Part shown: positions 31,106 to 36,734 of the stretch, one piece after another | Layout: every line of letters begins with the position of its first letter | Position numbering within the stretch: position 1 is the stretch's first letter | Assembly: GCA_011390205.1 (NCBI GenBank) | Contig: JAABSX010000017.1 | Location: 1-64,000, forward strand | DNA: 64,000 bases | Direction: 5' to 3' | From: Microscillaceae bacterium | GTDB lineage: Bacteria > Bacteroidota > Bacteroidia > Cytophagales > Microscillaceae | Notes under the pieces: generated by a model | What the model was told of the DNA's origin: nothing | Database searches by the model: none | The model's input: the letters and a program-made list of their open reading frames with translations, nothing else | Position numbers and translations under genes: made by a program

Positions 31106-31558
31106 GTGGATACATTAAGTTATAAAACAATTTCGGCTAATAAGAATACTGTTGATAAGAAGTGGGTATTGGTCGATGCAGAAGGATTAGTGCTAGGAAG
31201 ATTGGCTAGCCAGATTGCGAAAGTAATCATGGGTAAAAACAAAACAAATTTTACCCCTCACGTAGATTGCGGAGACAATGTTATTGTCATCAACTCCGAC
31301 AAAGTCCGCCTTACAGGCAAAAAATGGACTGACAAGACCTATGTGAGACACACAGGCTATCCAGGAGGGCAAAGATTTACGAGCCCACGTGAGATAGTCA
31401 CAAGTAAGTCTTCAACTATCCTGATAGAAAAGGCAGTAAAAGGGATGCTTCCCAAAAATCGATTAGGTAATAAAATCTTTCATAATTTATTCGTCTATGA
31501 AGGAACAGAACACCCACACGAAGCACAGCAACCCGAAAAAATTGAATTCAAATTATAA
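31106..31558 (+). CDS. rplM: 50S ribosomal protein L13
   Basis: L13 (150 aa) of the large subunit, an early assembly protein. The family core is plain: [67 protein letters not shown]. The start codon is GTG at 31106, giving [13 protein letters not shown], the usual Bacteroidota N-terminus. It is first in the rplM-rpsI-rpsB transcript. Confidence 0.98.
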
Positions 31559-31583
31559 TCCAAACTAAAGAAATAGACGGCAA

Positions 31584-31982
31584 ATGAGTGAAGTGAAAGA
31601 CGTAATTAATACGATTGGTCGCCGGAAAACCTCGGTAGCCCGTATTTATATGAAGCCGGGAAATGGAGAAATTAAGGTCAACAAACGTGATTTTAAAGAA
31701 TATTTTCCTACCGAAGTCCTACAAACCAAAATCCAGCAACCCCTCACCCTCATAGAGGCAGTAGGGACTTTTGACATCCAGGTCAATGTAGCAGGTGGTG
31801 GCTTTACAGGGCAAGCAGAAGCAGTAAGAATGGCTATTTCAAGGGCTTTGTGCGAATACAATGCTGAAAACCGCCCACCTCTCAAAAAAGAGGGATTCCT
31901 TACAAGAGATTCTCGTATGGTAGAACGTAAGAAGTACGGTCGTCGCAAGGCTCGTCGTCGCTTCCAGTTTAGTAAACGATAA
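31584..31982 (+). CDS. rpsI: 30S ribosomal protein S9
   Basis: S9 (132 aa), whose C-terminal tail contacts P-site tRNA. Motifs: TIGRRKTSVARIYMKPGNG, VAGGGFTGQAEAVRMAISRAL, and the tail DSRMVERKKYGRRKARRRFQFSKR-type basic end finishing in SKR. It follows rplM by 25 bp, the usual pairing. Confidence 0.98.
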   Translation: MSEVKDVINTIGRRKTSVARIYMKPGNGEIKVNKRDFKEYFPTEVLQTKIQQPLTLIEAVGTFDIQVNVAGGGFTGQAEAVRMAISRALCEYNAENRPPLKKEGFLTRDSRMVERKKYGRRKARRRFQFSKR

Positions 31983-32001
31983 TAGATTTTTCGAAAATAT
32001 T

Positions 32002-32796
32002 ATGATACAAGTAGAATATAAAGACCTCCTAGATGCAGGTGTGCATTTTGGCCACTTGACCCGCAAGTGGGACCCTAAAATGGCTCCCTATATCTTCATG
32101 GAAAAAAATGGTATCCATATCATCGATATCAATAAAACTTTGGTGTGCCTACAAGAAGCTTCGAATGCCATTAAAAGCATCGTTCGCTCTGGAAAAAGAG
32201 TGATGTTCGTAGCCACTAAAAAGCAAGCGCAAGACATCGTACAGGAGCACGCAAAAGACCTCAAAATGCCCTTCGTTACTGAAAGATGGCTAGGTGGAAT
32301 GCTTACCAACTTCGCTACTGTACGTAAGTCCTTGAAGAAAATGTCTTCTATCGAGAAAATGATGAAGGAGGATAGCTTCAAGAATCTTGCAAAACGTGAG
32401 AGACTCACCGTTACTCGTGAACGTGATAAATTAGAAAAATTACTAGGAGGCATCGCTGACTTAGGTAAACTTCCCTCAGCACTTTTTGTGGTGGACATCA
32501 AGCGTGAACACATCGCAGTAGCAGAAGCAAAAAAACTCGGGATTCCCATTATCGGTATCGTAGATACAAACTCTAATCCGAATCAAATTGATTTCCCTAT
32601 CCCTGCCAATGATGATGCATATAAGTCTATTAGCCTTATTCTAAAAGTAATCGCATCGGCAGTAGAAGAAGGTCTTGCAGAACGCAAACGTGAAAAAGAC
32701 GACCAAAAAATGCAAGAAGAAGAAAATGCCAAACGCAAAGTAGATGCTGCCAAAGACGAAGAAAAAGAAATTATAGAAGAAAAAGACGAAGAGTAA
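32002..32796 (+). CDS. rpsB: 30S ribosomal protein S2
   Basis: S2 (264 aa). The N-terminal LLDAGVHFGHLTRKWDPKM, FVATKKQAQ, ERWLGGMLTNF and IPIIGIVDTNSNP motifs are all present. The last 40 residues form a strongly charged Lys/Glu tail (KREKDDQKMQEEEN onward), longer than in E. coli and common in this phylum. It ends at a hairpin; tsf follows after 180 bp. Confidence 0.98.
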   Translation: MIQVEYKDLLDAGVHFGHLTRKWDPKMAPYIFMEKNGIHIIDINKTLVCLQEASNAIKSIVRSGKRVMFVATKKQAQDIVQEHAKDLKMPFVTERWLGGMLTNFATVRKSLKKMSSIEKMMKEDSFKNLAKRERLTVTRERDKLEKLLGGIADLGKLPSALFVVDIKREHIAVAEAKKLGIPIIGIVDTNSNPNQIDFPIPANDDAYKSISLILKVIASAVEEGLAERKREKDDQKMQEEENAKRKVDAAKDEEKEIIEEKDEE

Positions 32797-32817
32797 TCTT
32801 CACAAAATATCTCCTTG

Positions 32818-32854
32818 AAATTGGACATTCAATCACTGAATGTTCAATTTTTTT
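32818..32854 (+). terminator. Terminator after rpsB
   Basis: Arms AAATTGGACATTCA and TGAATGTTCAATTT, nearly perfect (one G-U type pair), with a short loop and a run of T. It lies 21 bp after the rpsB stop and partly separates it from tsf. Confidence 0.75.
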
Positions 32855-32931
32855 ATAAGGGATTTCTACTATAATTCCTAAACCTTTTTTAGAAAAATAG
32901 CTTATCTAATCTAGGTACATAGGCTCAAAAA

Positions 32932-32939
32932 TACTTTTG
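32932..32939 (+). promoter_or_regulatory. Candidate -7 box for tsf
   Basis: TACTTTTG matches TAnnTTTG and lies 38 bp before the tsf ATG; the -33 element is not clear. It would give tsf its own transcript beyond the rpsB terminator. Confidence 0.4.
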
Positions 32940-32977
32940 AACTCTTGACAATTTAACAAACCCAAATTTAAAAAAAA

Positions 32978-33808
32978 ATGTCAATCTCTGCCAAAGACGT
33001 AAACCAACTGCGCAAAATGACAGGTGCAGGTATGATGGATTGTAAAAAAGCCCTAGAAGAAGCCAACGGAAACTTCGAAGAGGCAATTACCATCTTACGC
33101 AAAAAAGGTCAAAAAATCTCCGCAAAACGCGCTGACCGTGAAACCACAGAAGGTGTAGTAAATGTATTCACCAATGAAGCAGGCACAGAGGCTGTCCTTA
33201 TCGCACTTAACTGCGAAACTGATTTCGTAGCTAAAAATGATGAGTTTGTGCAGCTCGCCAATACCGTATTAGAGGCTGCCATCAAAAATAAACCTGCCGA
33301 TACAGAAGCCCTCCTCGCACAAGATGTAGCGGGAAGACCACTCAATGACTATATCACTGACTTCATGGGTAAAATCGGAGAGAAAATCGAAATCTCTTCT
33401 TACGAGACCATGAGTGCCGAACACGTAGTAACTTACTTACACTCTAACAAAAAGTTAGGCGTATTGCTAGGAATGAACGGAATAGGTGCAAATGATGTCA
33501 GTGATTTAGGAAAAGACATCGCCATGCAAATCGCAGCCATGAAGCCTGTAGCACTTGATGAGAATGATGTGCCACAAGAAGTGAAAGACCGTGAAATAGA
33601 AATAGGCAAGGAACAAGCCCTTCAAGAAGGAAAGCCTGCCAACATCTTGGAGAAAATTGCAGAAGGAAAACTCAAAAAATTCTACAAAGACAATACACTC
33701 TTACACCAAGATTTTGTGAAAGATAACTCTAAGAGTATCGCCCAACTACTGAAAGAGGTAAGTGCAGACCTAAACATCAAAGGTTTCAAGCGCATAGAGA
33801 TTGCATAA
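32978..33808 (+). CDS. tsf: Elongation factor Ts
   Basis: EF-Ts (276 aa), the nucleotide exchange factor of EF-Tu. The N-terminal UBA-like region and signature VNQLRKMTGAGMMDCKKALEEA are clear, followed by KRADRETTEGVV, CETDFVAKNDEF and the C-terminal DFVKDNSKSIAQLLKE. It stands behind rpsB in the usual order but has its own promoter candidate and a strong terminator. Confidence 0.98.
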   Translation: MSISAKDVNQLRKMTGAGMMDCKKALEEANGNFEEAITILRKKGQKISAKRADRETTEGVVNVFTNEAGTEAVLIALNCETDFVAKNDEFVQLANTVLEAAIKNKPADTEALLAQDVAGRPLNDYITDFMGKIGEKIEISSYETMSAEHVVTYLHSNKKLGVLLGMNGIGANDVSDLGKDIAMQIAAMKPVALDENDVPQEVKDREIEIGKEQALQEGKPANILEKIAEGKLKKFYKDNTLLHQDFVKDNSKSIAQLLKEVSADLNIKGFKRIEIA

Positions 33809-33971: not shown

Positions 33972-34832
33972 ATGATACTTATCGCTGACAGTGGCTCTAC
34001 CAAAACAGAATGGGCTTTGCTAAATACTCAAAACGCCAAAATTTTGGGGCAAAGCCCAGGTATCAATCCCTATCAGCAGGCACAAGCTGAGATTGAAGAG
34101 GTGCTCAGACAAACACTTAGGCTAGAAGAAAAAGACAACATAGAATATCTATACTTTTACGGAACAGGCTGCGCGCTCCTACCCAATCAAATGCTGGTCA
34201 AGAAAGCACTGCAAGCTGTGTTTCAGCATGCCAAAATAGAAGTAAGCCACGACCTGTTGGGCACTGTGCGGAGTATGTGCGGACACGAGGCGGGCATTGC
34301 AGCCATCCTAGGCACAGGGGCAAATGCCTGCCGATACAATGGAAAAGAAATCACCAGCCCCGAAAGCAGCTTAGGCTATGTCCTCGGAGATGAAGGAAGT
34401 GGAGCATATCTAGGTAAAAAACTTGTAACAGCTTTTTTGCGGGCGGAGATGCCCCAAGATTTACAAACACTTTTTTCCGAAAAATTTAATCTAAATAGAG
34501 CAACTGTCTTAGAGGCGGTTTATCAGAAGCCTTACCCCAACCGATATTTGGCTTCTTTTTCACCTTTCCTGAGAGAGCAAATAGAGCAGCCCTACATTAT
34601 ACAATTACTTAAAGAGGCATTTACGGCTTTCATTGAGAAATGTATCCTGACCTTGCCCGGCTTTCAGCTCAGTTTGCCTTTGTTTTTTACGGGTTCTATC
34701 GCTTGGCATTATCAAAAAATATTGCACGAAGTAGCCCACGATAAAAATTTAATCATCAAAGAAATCGTTCAAAATCCTATGGAAGGACTAATCCAATACC
34801 ATCAAAAATTATTAACTCAAAATCATGCCTAG
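33972..34832 (+). CDS. BadF/BadG-type sugar kinase (N-acetylglucosamine kinase-like)
   Basis: A 286-aa actin-fold ATPase with the phosphate-1 motif ADSGSTKTEWALL, the second site HEAGIAAILGTGANACRY and GYVLGDEGSGAYLGK. This set is that of the BadF/BcrA/NAGK group; in Bacteroidota the short form is generally taken to phosphorylate N-acetylglucosamine or a related amino sugar during cell-wall recycling. A TATTTTTG -7-like box lies at 33944-33951. Its last 8 bp overlap the start of the exported deformylase, so the two are translationally linked. Confidence 0.85.
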   Translation: MILIADSGSTKTEWALLNTQNAKILGQSPGINPYQQAQAEIEEVLRQTLRLEEKDNIEYLYFYGTGCALLPNQMLVKKALQAVFQHAKIEVSHDLLGTVRSMCGHEAGIAAILGTGANACRYNGKEITSPESSLGYVLGDEGSGAYLGKKLVTAFLRAEMPQDLQTLFSEKFNLNRATVLEAVYQKPYPNRYLASFSPFLREQIEQPYIIQLLKEAFTAFIEKCILTLPGFQLSLPLFFTGSIAWHYQKILHEVAHDKNLIIKEIVQNPMEGLIQYHQKLLTQNHA

Positions 34833-35472
34833 AATTCTTTATCTTATCATTGCATCTGTTGTTCTGTCCTTCAATGCTCAAGCACAGACAAACTACAAAG
34901 CTTTTAGCCCTGCTGAGGTCAATATGATTGCAGACGCTGACTCTAGCAAGCCCATGCGTGTGCTACAAATTACCAATTATGTAGATTCGGTATTTCTGAG
35001 AATGCCTTCTCTAGAAGTAAAGCCTGATGCCAGTGATACCATTTTGCTGGGTTTTATCAACAGACTTTATAAGACAGTCAGAGACCCCAATTCTTTGGGA
35101 GTAGGCATTGCTGCTCCACAAGTAGGAATCCCGAGAAGAATTATATGGGTGCAGCGCTTTGACAAGGAGGCCGATCAGATGCCTTTTGAGGTGTATCTGA
35201 ATCCTAAAATTGTCCAATACAGTGATTCCACCAAACTGACCATGGAGGGCTGTTTGTCTATTCCTGATTTTAGCTCAGAGGTCAAGCGTCCTTGCTCCAT
35301 TGTGATAGAATATGATGGCTTAGATGGCTTGCAGCACCGAGAAACCATTGAAGGCTTTACTTCTGTGATTTTTCAGCACGAAATAGATCATCTTGATGGT
35401 ATTTTATACCTTGACCATCTTAAAAAAGAGGTCTATGACCAGCGAAAGAAAGACCAAAGAAGTAACAGATGA
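34825..35472 (+). CDS. Peptide deformylase with an N-terminal signal peptide
   Basis: A 215-aa protein with all three peptide deformylase motifs intact: GVGIAAPQ (92-99), EGCLS (141-145, metal ligand Cys143) and QHEIDH (184-189, two metal ligands and the catalytic Glu). Normal deformylases are cytosolic and lack any leader. This one begins MPRILYLIIASVVLSFNAQAQ, a good signal peptide with an AQA cleavage site, so it is predicted to act in the periplasm. It also has about 50 residues between the signal and the usual enzyme start. Whether the substrate is still N-formyl peptides is unknown. It overlaps the sugar kinase gene by 8 bp. I withhold the symbol def because the housekeeping enzyme is probably elsewhere. 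Confidence 0.85.
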   Translation: MPRILYLIIASVVLSFNAQAQTNYKAFSPAEVNMIADADSSKPMRVLQITNYVDSVFLRMPSLEVKPDASDTILLGFINRLYKTVRDPNSLGVGIAAPQVGIPRRIIWVQRFDKEADQMPFEVYLNPKIVQYSDSTKLTMEGCLSIPDFSSEVKRPCSIVIEYDGLDGLQHRETIEGFTSVIFQHEIDHLDGILYLDHLKKEVYDQRKKDQRSNR

Positions 35473-35645: not shown

Positions 35646-36734
35646 TTACTTCTGTATTGTTTTTTTTTCAATCCATCCACAGAGATAGGGCTTGATTAGG
35701 GGTTCTTCTACCAATGTACCACTTTCATCAAAATAGATCGAGTCCATGCCATGCTTTAAGCTATTGGCAATGATCTTACTATCTGGTTTGAAGGCGACAA
35801 GCAGCCAATTATCCTCTTTGCCCAAAATAAACCCCTCACTATTCGCACCTATTTCTGCCACTATATTTCCTCTCAAAGTATGTGTCAGCGTATCAATGTA
35901 GTATTCATTCCCTTCTTCATCTCTTGGTTTAGGGCTGTCATCTATTTTTGGGCTGATTCGTAGTGCGGCTTTTCTTGTTAGCTTGAAAGGACTAGGGCGT
36001 AAAAGAGAAGGAGGGATAAATGTTTCACGTGCATAATATTGCTTGGCGGCAGTGATACAATGCTTGTTTTTAAATGAATATACAAGCGTCTGTAGTATCT
36101 CACATTCTGTCATTTCAATCGGCAAAAGCATGTAACGCAATACAAGCTGCTTTTTTTGGGGCTGTATGACCACAAATTCTCCTAGATTGTTAAGAATCTC
36201 TTTAAACTTACCATCTTGATAGGCATAAATGATATAACCTGGTGAAGGCCCAAAGAAAATACGAGGAAATAAAAGCATGTCTGCCCGTCCGTCTTTCTCA
36301 AAATCTAAAATGCGTATGACATGGTTTTCTTCTCCTAATATCTCTGGAATGACCTCTTGACGCTCTATTTGACGCTTTTGAAACTCAAGTAAATCTTTTT
36401 GATAGGCTGCGTGGCTGCTGTCCATACTGCTTATTTGGAGATCTATTCTCTGAAAAAGGCTTTCTTTTTCTTTTTGGCTGAGTGTATATCCAAGGGCATT
36501 TACCAATAGTACATAATCTGTAAATACAATTTCTCCTTTGATAAATGATCGCAGCAGTGCTCGTTTTTGCGTATCATCGCCCTCAAAGGCATAGGCATCT
36601 AGGCTTTGATTTATTTTGGATTCTCGGGCAGGGTCATATACATATTTTTCAAAAGCAAATGGCGTAGATGTCTGTGCAAAGCCTTCAAAAAAAACTGTAA
36701 GTACAAAAAAGACAGTAATAAATGTAGGTTTCAT
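35646..36734 (-). CDS. Exported protein of unknown function
   Basis: I do not recognise it. A 362-aa protein with a signal peptide (FITVFFVLTVFFEGFAQT, cleavage near residue 20). The first half is helical and charged. The middle has a phrase typical of FG-GAP/EF-hand-like calcium loops (ILDFEKDGRADMLLF), as in proteins that report a numeric field. The last third (GNIVAEIGANSEGFILGKEDNWLLVAF) resembles a bacterial SH3-like module. It follows the WecB/TagA/CpsF-type gene at 14 bp on the same strand, so it may act with polysaccharide synthesis or simply share its transcript. Confidence 0.75.
   Translation of the reverse strand: MKPTFITVFFVLTVFFEGFAQTSTPFAFEKYVYDPARESKINQSLDAYAFEGDDTQKRALLRSFIKGEIVFTDYVLLVNALGYTLSQKEKESLFQRIDLQISSMDSSHAAYQKDLLEFQKRQIERQEVIPEILGEENHVIRILDFEKDGRADMLLFPRIFFGPSPGYIIYAYQDGKFKEILNNLGEFVVIQPQKKQLVLRYMLLPIEMTECEILQTLVYSFKNKHCITAAKQYYARETFIPPSLLRPSPFKLTRKAALRISPKIDDSPKPRDEEGNEYYIDTLTHTLRGNIVAEIGANSEGFILGKEDNWLLVAFKPDSKIIANSLKHGMDSIYFDESGTLVEEPLIKPYLCGWIEKKTIQK

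Follow-up and report, generated by a model that had tools for sequence, protein, structure and literature searches.

A family of peptide deformylases (PDFs) that are predicted to leave the cytosol was identified, mostly in Bacteroidota, from a gene in a 64,000-nucleotide stretch of contig JAABSX010000017.1 of a Microscillaceae bacterium (the window). These proteins retain the deformylase catalytic residues behind a signal peptide or a lipobox, and we propose that they uncap formyl-methionine N-termini in the periplasm for exported aminopeptidases, a reading to which we give a probability of about one half. PDF, an antibiotic target, is regarded as an enzyme of the cytosol (or of organelles) that associates with the ribosome; if the proposal is true, the existence of an exported clade whose catalysis is intact would extend deformylation to the envelope.

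The window gene encodes a PDF with a predicted signal peptide

The gene (Table 1) is the last of a run encoding L13, S9, S2, EF-Ts and a sugar kinase, and no peptidase gene adjoins it. Its product matches Pfam Pep_deformylase (PF01327) over residues 47-202 with 131 bits (cut-off 22.8), passes TIGR00079 (111.7 bits, cut-off 103.95) and lies slightly below the cut-off of NF001159 (122 against 125 bits). The earlier note had described a PDF with all three metal and catalytic motifs intact, and the motifs, read directly, together with the Pfam score confirm this description. The AlphaFold2 model (pLDDT 92.7, pTM 0.84) was compared with known structures using Foldseek: all 50 matches listed are PDFs, with E-values down to 1e-14, the best listed being 4dr8, 6jes, 3uwb and 1lme. 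Further along the window, on the minus strand (35646-36734), a 362-aa protein without Pfam or NCBIfam match has a signal-like N-terminus ending in FAQ.

Table 1. Features of the PDF gene and of the genes upstream in the window.
Feature	Coordinates	Strand	Basis
Genes for L13, S9, S2 and EF-Ts, upstream	31106..33808	+	Pfam; ORFs
BadF-type (MurNAc/GlcNAc-kinase-like) sugar kinase	33972..34832	+	PF01869; overlaps PDF ORF by 8 bp
PDF, predicted exported, 215 aa, ATG start	34825..35472	+	ORF; PF01327; TIGR00079; AlphaFold2; Foldseek
Predicted signal peptide (residues 1-20) with an SPI cut proposed between AQA and Q21	34825..34884	+	Read by eye; lipoprotein/SPI signals of relatives at same place
Family-specific conserved segment F27-M44, upstream of usual PDF start	34903..34956	+	Near-invariant F27, I35; fixes start codon
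Motif I, GVGIAAPQ, residues 92-99	35098..35121	+	Sequence; G, G, A, A, Q columns identical in 83/83 members
Motif II, EGCLS, residues 141-145, metal-ligand Cys143	35245..35259	+	Cys in 83/83; Asp in related subclade
Motif III, QHEIDH, residues 184-189	35374..35391	+	83/83 members
C-terminal tail, 26 residues after HExDH	35392..35469	+	Helix at 195-213 in model

Read by eye, the N-terminus, MPRILYLIIASVVLSFNAQA followed by QTN, looks like a signal peptide, and the glutamine that comes first after AQA agrees with the Q-rule, the glutamine after the signal peptidase I (SPI) cut described for Bacteroidetes in PMC5837995. A scripted rule also classed the protein as SPI, with the cut placed elsewhere. 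Since this rule fires on 149 of 596 neighbour ORFs as well, it is too weak alone, and the case for export of the window PDF thus rests on its relatives. These share the segment from F27 to M44 (FSPAEVNMIADADSSKPM), in which F27 and I35 are nearly invariant (26 diverse members compared). The sole ATG, GTG or TTG upstream of F27 and I35 in the open frame is that at 34825, the next ATGs being at residues 34 and 44. Every later ATG would leave out conserved sequence. Translation therefore starts at the ATG in front of the signal, and the hydrophobic N-terminus is part of the protein; starts at residue 34 or 44 were ruled out by the conserved residues upstream of both. The signal peptide that the earlier note had predicted is thus borne out by eye, by the signals of the relatives and by the start codon, and the reservation that the real start might lie downstream of the signal region does not apply. 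At the level of sequence, the window PDF is confirmed as a predicted exported protein.

A housekeeping PDF is encoded in the same genomes

A second PDF, on contig 69 of the window genome, scores 177 bits against 132 for the window PDF, and the two are 30% identical over 152 columns. This better-scoring housekeeping enzyme rules out the window PDF as the sole cytosolic PDF; a search for such an enzyme had been called for earlier, its absence being the finding that would have spoken against export. All of the 30 member genomes tested, which were hand-picked, also encode a further PDF (at least two PDFs each). A ribosome-bound housekeeping PDF is expected to be cytosolic and to have no export signal, whereas the window PDF carries one by eye and in its relatives.

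Relatives of the window PDF carry export signals

We assembled 83 members, namely the best 80 of 581 encoding stretches from a scan of genome contigs, two loci from related genomes and the window. Because it holds the best 80 of 581, this set leans towards the query, and draws of 392 and 396 genomes are less biased. Outside the 83 stands an ortholog in the window's own family (L006, G009:C9) with an interrupted reading frame and a signal-like N-terminus ending in GAQ, the interruption reflecting either assembly error or decay. For comparison, 56 of 57 housekeeping loci were used, L141 being dropped when the script did not find its motif.

A lipobox (SPII) rule assigned 80 of the 83 members to the lipoproteins, and the SPI rule was satisfied by the window PDF, L086 and, doubtfully, L109. 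When starts were restricted to ATG, the counts were 76 SPII, three SPI and four without signal. In controls the SPII rule fired on none of the 56 housekeeping PDFs and on 47 of 596 neighbour ORFs; one housekeeping PDF scored as SPI and one had another hydrophobic N-terminus. The two wider draws comprise 22 distinct members, in 19 of which a stricter rule that required Q for SPI detected a signal (5 SPII and 14 SPI with Q). Among the three missed, L143 has the same N-terminus as L089, itself scored SPII by the lipobox rule, and L210 is signal-like by eye; L147, a member of the exported-type clade, has no visible signal and may represent a return to the cytosol. Lipoproteins therefore predominate among the close relatives of the query, and SPI forms in the wider draws.

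An acidic signal after the cysteine marks surface-exported Bacteroidetes lipoproteins, as described in PMC5080379. The family does not carry it: Asp or Glu at +2 to +5 was found in 2 of 80 lipoprotein members, a tally in which a few cysteines may be the wrong one (L059, for example). Cysteine depletion, expected in an oxidising compartment, was looked for and the opposite was seen, with a mean of 0.77 extra cysteines in exported members against 0.30 in housekeeping PDFs.

Exported PDFs form one clade of patchy occurrence

A quick maximum-likelihood tree separated 43 exported rows from 29 others with an SH-aLRT support of 99, and a second one separated 61 exported rows from 8 others with a support of 100; both contain long branches, which in the second include those of L195-L197 and of the housekeeping rows. 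In these trees the exported PDFs are one clade apart from the housekeeping PDFs. Most members come from Bacteroidota records, and L089 and L101 from MAGs labelled Ignavibacteria and Neomarinimicrobiota. The exported type occurs in 12 of 392 and 13 of 396 genomes of the two wider draws, the latter class-wide (three shared, 22 distinct genomes), in 2 of 15 genomes of the window's own family and, as a match, in 31 of 80 genomes of the family f25 (32 at threshold, one of them within the housekeeping score range). Such patchy occurrence indicates that the function is dispensable. A mobile-element origin was set aside: on none of the plasmid and phage records (5 and 18 matched) was 80% of the protein covered.

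The catalytic site is retained, with a change of metal ligand in one lineage

At the E. coli columns, all 83 members share the G, G, A, A and Q of motif I, Glu, Cys, Leu and Ser of motif II, and QHExDH; the Gly of motif II is replaced by Ala in one. Hydrophobic residues occupy three columns that we take to be the Met pocket of the E. coli enzyme (Phe in 82, Val in 74 and Ile in 83 of 83). The exported proteins are predicted to have deformylase activity. In 32 of 83 members a further cysteine precedes EGCLS, with one residue in between (C-x-E-G-C); a disulfide or redox role is conceivable for it.

In E. coli PDF, the tail after HExDH includes the ribosome-binding helix. This tail has a median of 19 residues in the 83 members against 42 in the 56 housekeeping PDFs (those of L099 and L087 are short through contig ends); the window tail, helical in the model, is close to the shortest housekeeping tail, of 27 residues.

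In f25, motif II reads EGDLS instead of EGCLS in 20 of 30 loci read, and Cys is kept in 10, three of them as DGCLS. The Asp-for-Cys proteins (L148-L154, L179 and L181-L194) all belong to this one family and to one clade. In the tree the 19 Asp rows make up exactly one clade (support 87), which suggests that the swap arose once. When H2O2 attacks ordinary PDF, the iron and its Cys ligand are oxidised jointly (as described in PMC10751367), so a protein with Asp at this position might be better suited to an oxidising compartment, and the swap could be an adaptation to it; a general redox adaptation is disfavoured, since the exported members are richer, not poorer, in other cysteines. With this natural swap, sensitivity to metal and to oxygen can readily be compared.

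Neighbouring genes and fusions

The link to a BadF-type kinase noted earlier is real and local. The kinase scores 38 bits with PF01869 (cut-off 31.5), resembles in sequence solved chains named MurNAc or GlcNAc kinase, and shares 8 bp with the PDF gene when its stop codon is counted. Among the PDF loci it belongs to no shared neighbour cluster, and tblastn of the kinase across the loci examined gave matches only in copies of the window's own place. An operonic function with a sugar kinase was thus ruled out as a general feature.

At 33 of 83 loci the PDF gene comes after genes of the same strand that encode a protein of 168 aa lacking a Pfam match (presumably mreD, by position), PBP2 and RodA, and the gaps range from -7 to 195 bp; Pfam was run on one representative per neighbour cluster. 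These loci come from named Flavobacteriaceae (31) or from records without a family name (2). Three other loci share an upstream neighbour, which is an Amidase_2 protein by Pfam in L179. Outside Flavobacteriaceae, a scan of 47 chosen neighbours found no family in more than four. The DUF885 neighbour of L049 was set aside as a peptidase because the HExxH motif is absent.

One genome, G774, encodes a signal peptide, an exported PDF and a Peptidase_M1 domain in a single chain of 830 aa (L212, 2223-4712), with 121.8 bits for PF01327 and 51.8 bits for PF01433 (cut-off 27.7). Among the 13 genomes of its family, G774 alone has the fusion. Proteins closely related to the M1 part occur as separate chains in five others, two of which carry the PDF elsewhere, and at least three of these separate proteins (L228, L230 and L231) have signal-like N-termini. 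In G426, DUF1684 and PDF lie behind a signal peptide in a chain of 411 aa (L146:1426-2658, minus strand). We also looked for an exported methionine aminopeptidase as a partner and found none among the four M24 members of the window genome; L201 (G000:C53) of this genome has a signal-like N-terminus and a weak M24 match (46.9 bits) and is not MAP-like.

Discussion

The earlier statement, by which an exported protein would meet no formylated chains, was too strong. According to PMC5454389 and PMC9099147, ordinary PDF acts at the ribosome, SRP blocks deformylation of the membrane proteins it binds, and the N-termini of N-out proteins end up out of reach of the cytosolic enzyme, so that formyl-Met can persist on proteins of the inner membrane, particularly on those of N-out topology; what the group does there is stated in these papers to be unknown. 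The periplasm can thus contain chains with a formyl block, and some might conceivably come from outside. In P. gingivalis, PMC8048996 reports that acylated N-termini resist the periplasmic dipeptidyl peptidases and need a special exopeptidase, which gives an uncapping enzyme a plausible use. These two points together lead us to favour uncapping ahead of exported aminopeptidases. A PDF-fold metalloenzyme would cross the inner membrane, being released into the periplasm by SPI in the window organism and held as a lipoprotein in most sampled relatives; there it would hydrolyse the formyl group of N-formyl-Met N-termini, and exported aminopeptidases would then degrade or trim chains otherwise left blocked. 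We infer export in vivo, deformylase activity, a formyl-peptide substrate and cooperation with aminopeptidases; intact catalytic residues, conserved signals, a separate clade, the coexisting housekeeping PDF and one M1 fusion are what the sequences themselves provide. Against such a role stand the single case of the fusion, the window gene's lack of a peptidase neighbour, the patchy occurrence, the lack of a signal in L147 and the absence of cysteine depletion.

The main rival is maturation of membrane proteins, in which the exported PDF would act on N-out proteins as such; we regard it as possible, though distinctly less probable. It draws on the same escape from the cytosolic enzyme through SRP and N-out topology (PMC5454389, PMC9099147), and a lipid anchor (80 of 83 predicted lipoproteins) mostly free of the acidic surface-export signal of PMC5080379 fits it, whereas the M1 fusion favours uncapping for aminopeptidases. 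Patchy occurrence speaks against it, as do the predominance of soluble SPI forms in the wider draws (14 with Q, which was required, against 5 SPII of 22) and the lack of a signal-bearing methionine aminopeptidase among the M24 members of the window genome. The position after PBP2 and rodA, the Amidase_2 neighbour and the kinase resembling MurNAc/GlcNAc kinases would suit an amidase of PDF fold that acts on something else in the envelope, for example in peptidoglycan turnover. We consider this improbable, as the rodA link is confined to Flavobacteriaceae (but for the two unnamed records) and can be inherited gene order, no neighbour family dominates elsewhere, and all deformylase catalytic columns are retained. 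Many genomes have accessory PDFs, and in Vibrio such an enzyme makes the cells less susceptible to actinonin (PMC12690207); that the present proteins protect against such PDF inhibitors, the signal region being uncleaved or incidental, nevertheless seems very improbable, for the signals are conserved across the family, an exported enzyme cannot replace the cytosolic PDF, and the tails are mostly short, even if that of the window comes near the housekeeping range.

Beyond the uncapping role that we prefer, we suggest, as a speculation that may well prove wrong, an extracytoplasmic route of N-terminal processing in Bacteroidota that mirrors the PDF-MAP pair of the cytosol: a PDF in the periplasm, lipid-anchored in most cases, would uncap formyl-Met ends, including those of N-out inner-membrane proteins, exported aminopeptidases would trim them, and one lineage would have swapped the oxidation-prone Cys ligand for Asp for extracytosolic life. 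Exported PDFs with intact catalysis would make it directly testable whether the formyl groups retained on bacterial membrane proteins (PMC5454389) matter or are ever removed.

No description of exported, periplasmic or lipoprotein PDFs was found among the matches listed from open-licence papers, a search in which subscription work may be missed, and the main text of a 2025 survey of accessory PDFs (PMC12690207) mentions neither Bacteroidota, Flavobacteria nor lipoprotein; the family appears to be undescribed. With type 1 bacterial PDFs (PF01327; TIGR00079) it shares the fold, the three motifs and the metal ligands, and it differs in its export signal, the F27-M44 segment, a shorter tail in most members, its separate clade and its occurrence beside a housekeeping PDF. 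Vibrio Def2 and other accessory PDFs are likewise second PDF genes in their genomes, but PMC12690207 places them in the cytosol and connects them with actinonin, unlike the exported family. The glutaminyl cyclase of Bacteroidetes, as described in PMC5837995, also modifies N-termini and occurs in both forms, in most Bacteroidetes as a lipoprotein and in some as an SPI protein; its chemistry is unrelated to that of PDF, and the likeness is one of working in this one respect. The acylpeptidyl-oligopeptidase of Porphyromonas (PMC8048996) likewise deals with blocked N-termini in the periplasm; it is a serine peptidase, its products are acylated di- and tripeptides, and as far as its description goes it is not homologous to PDF.
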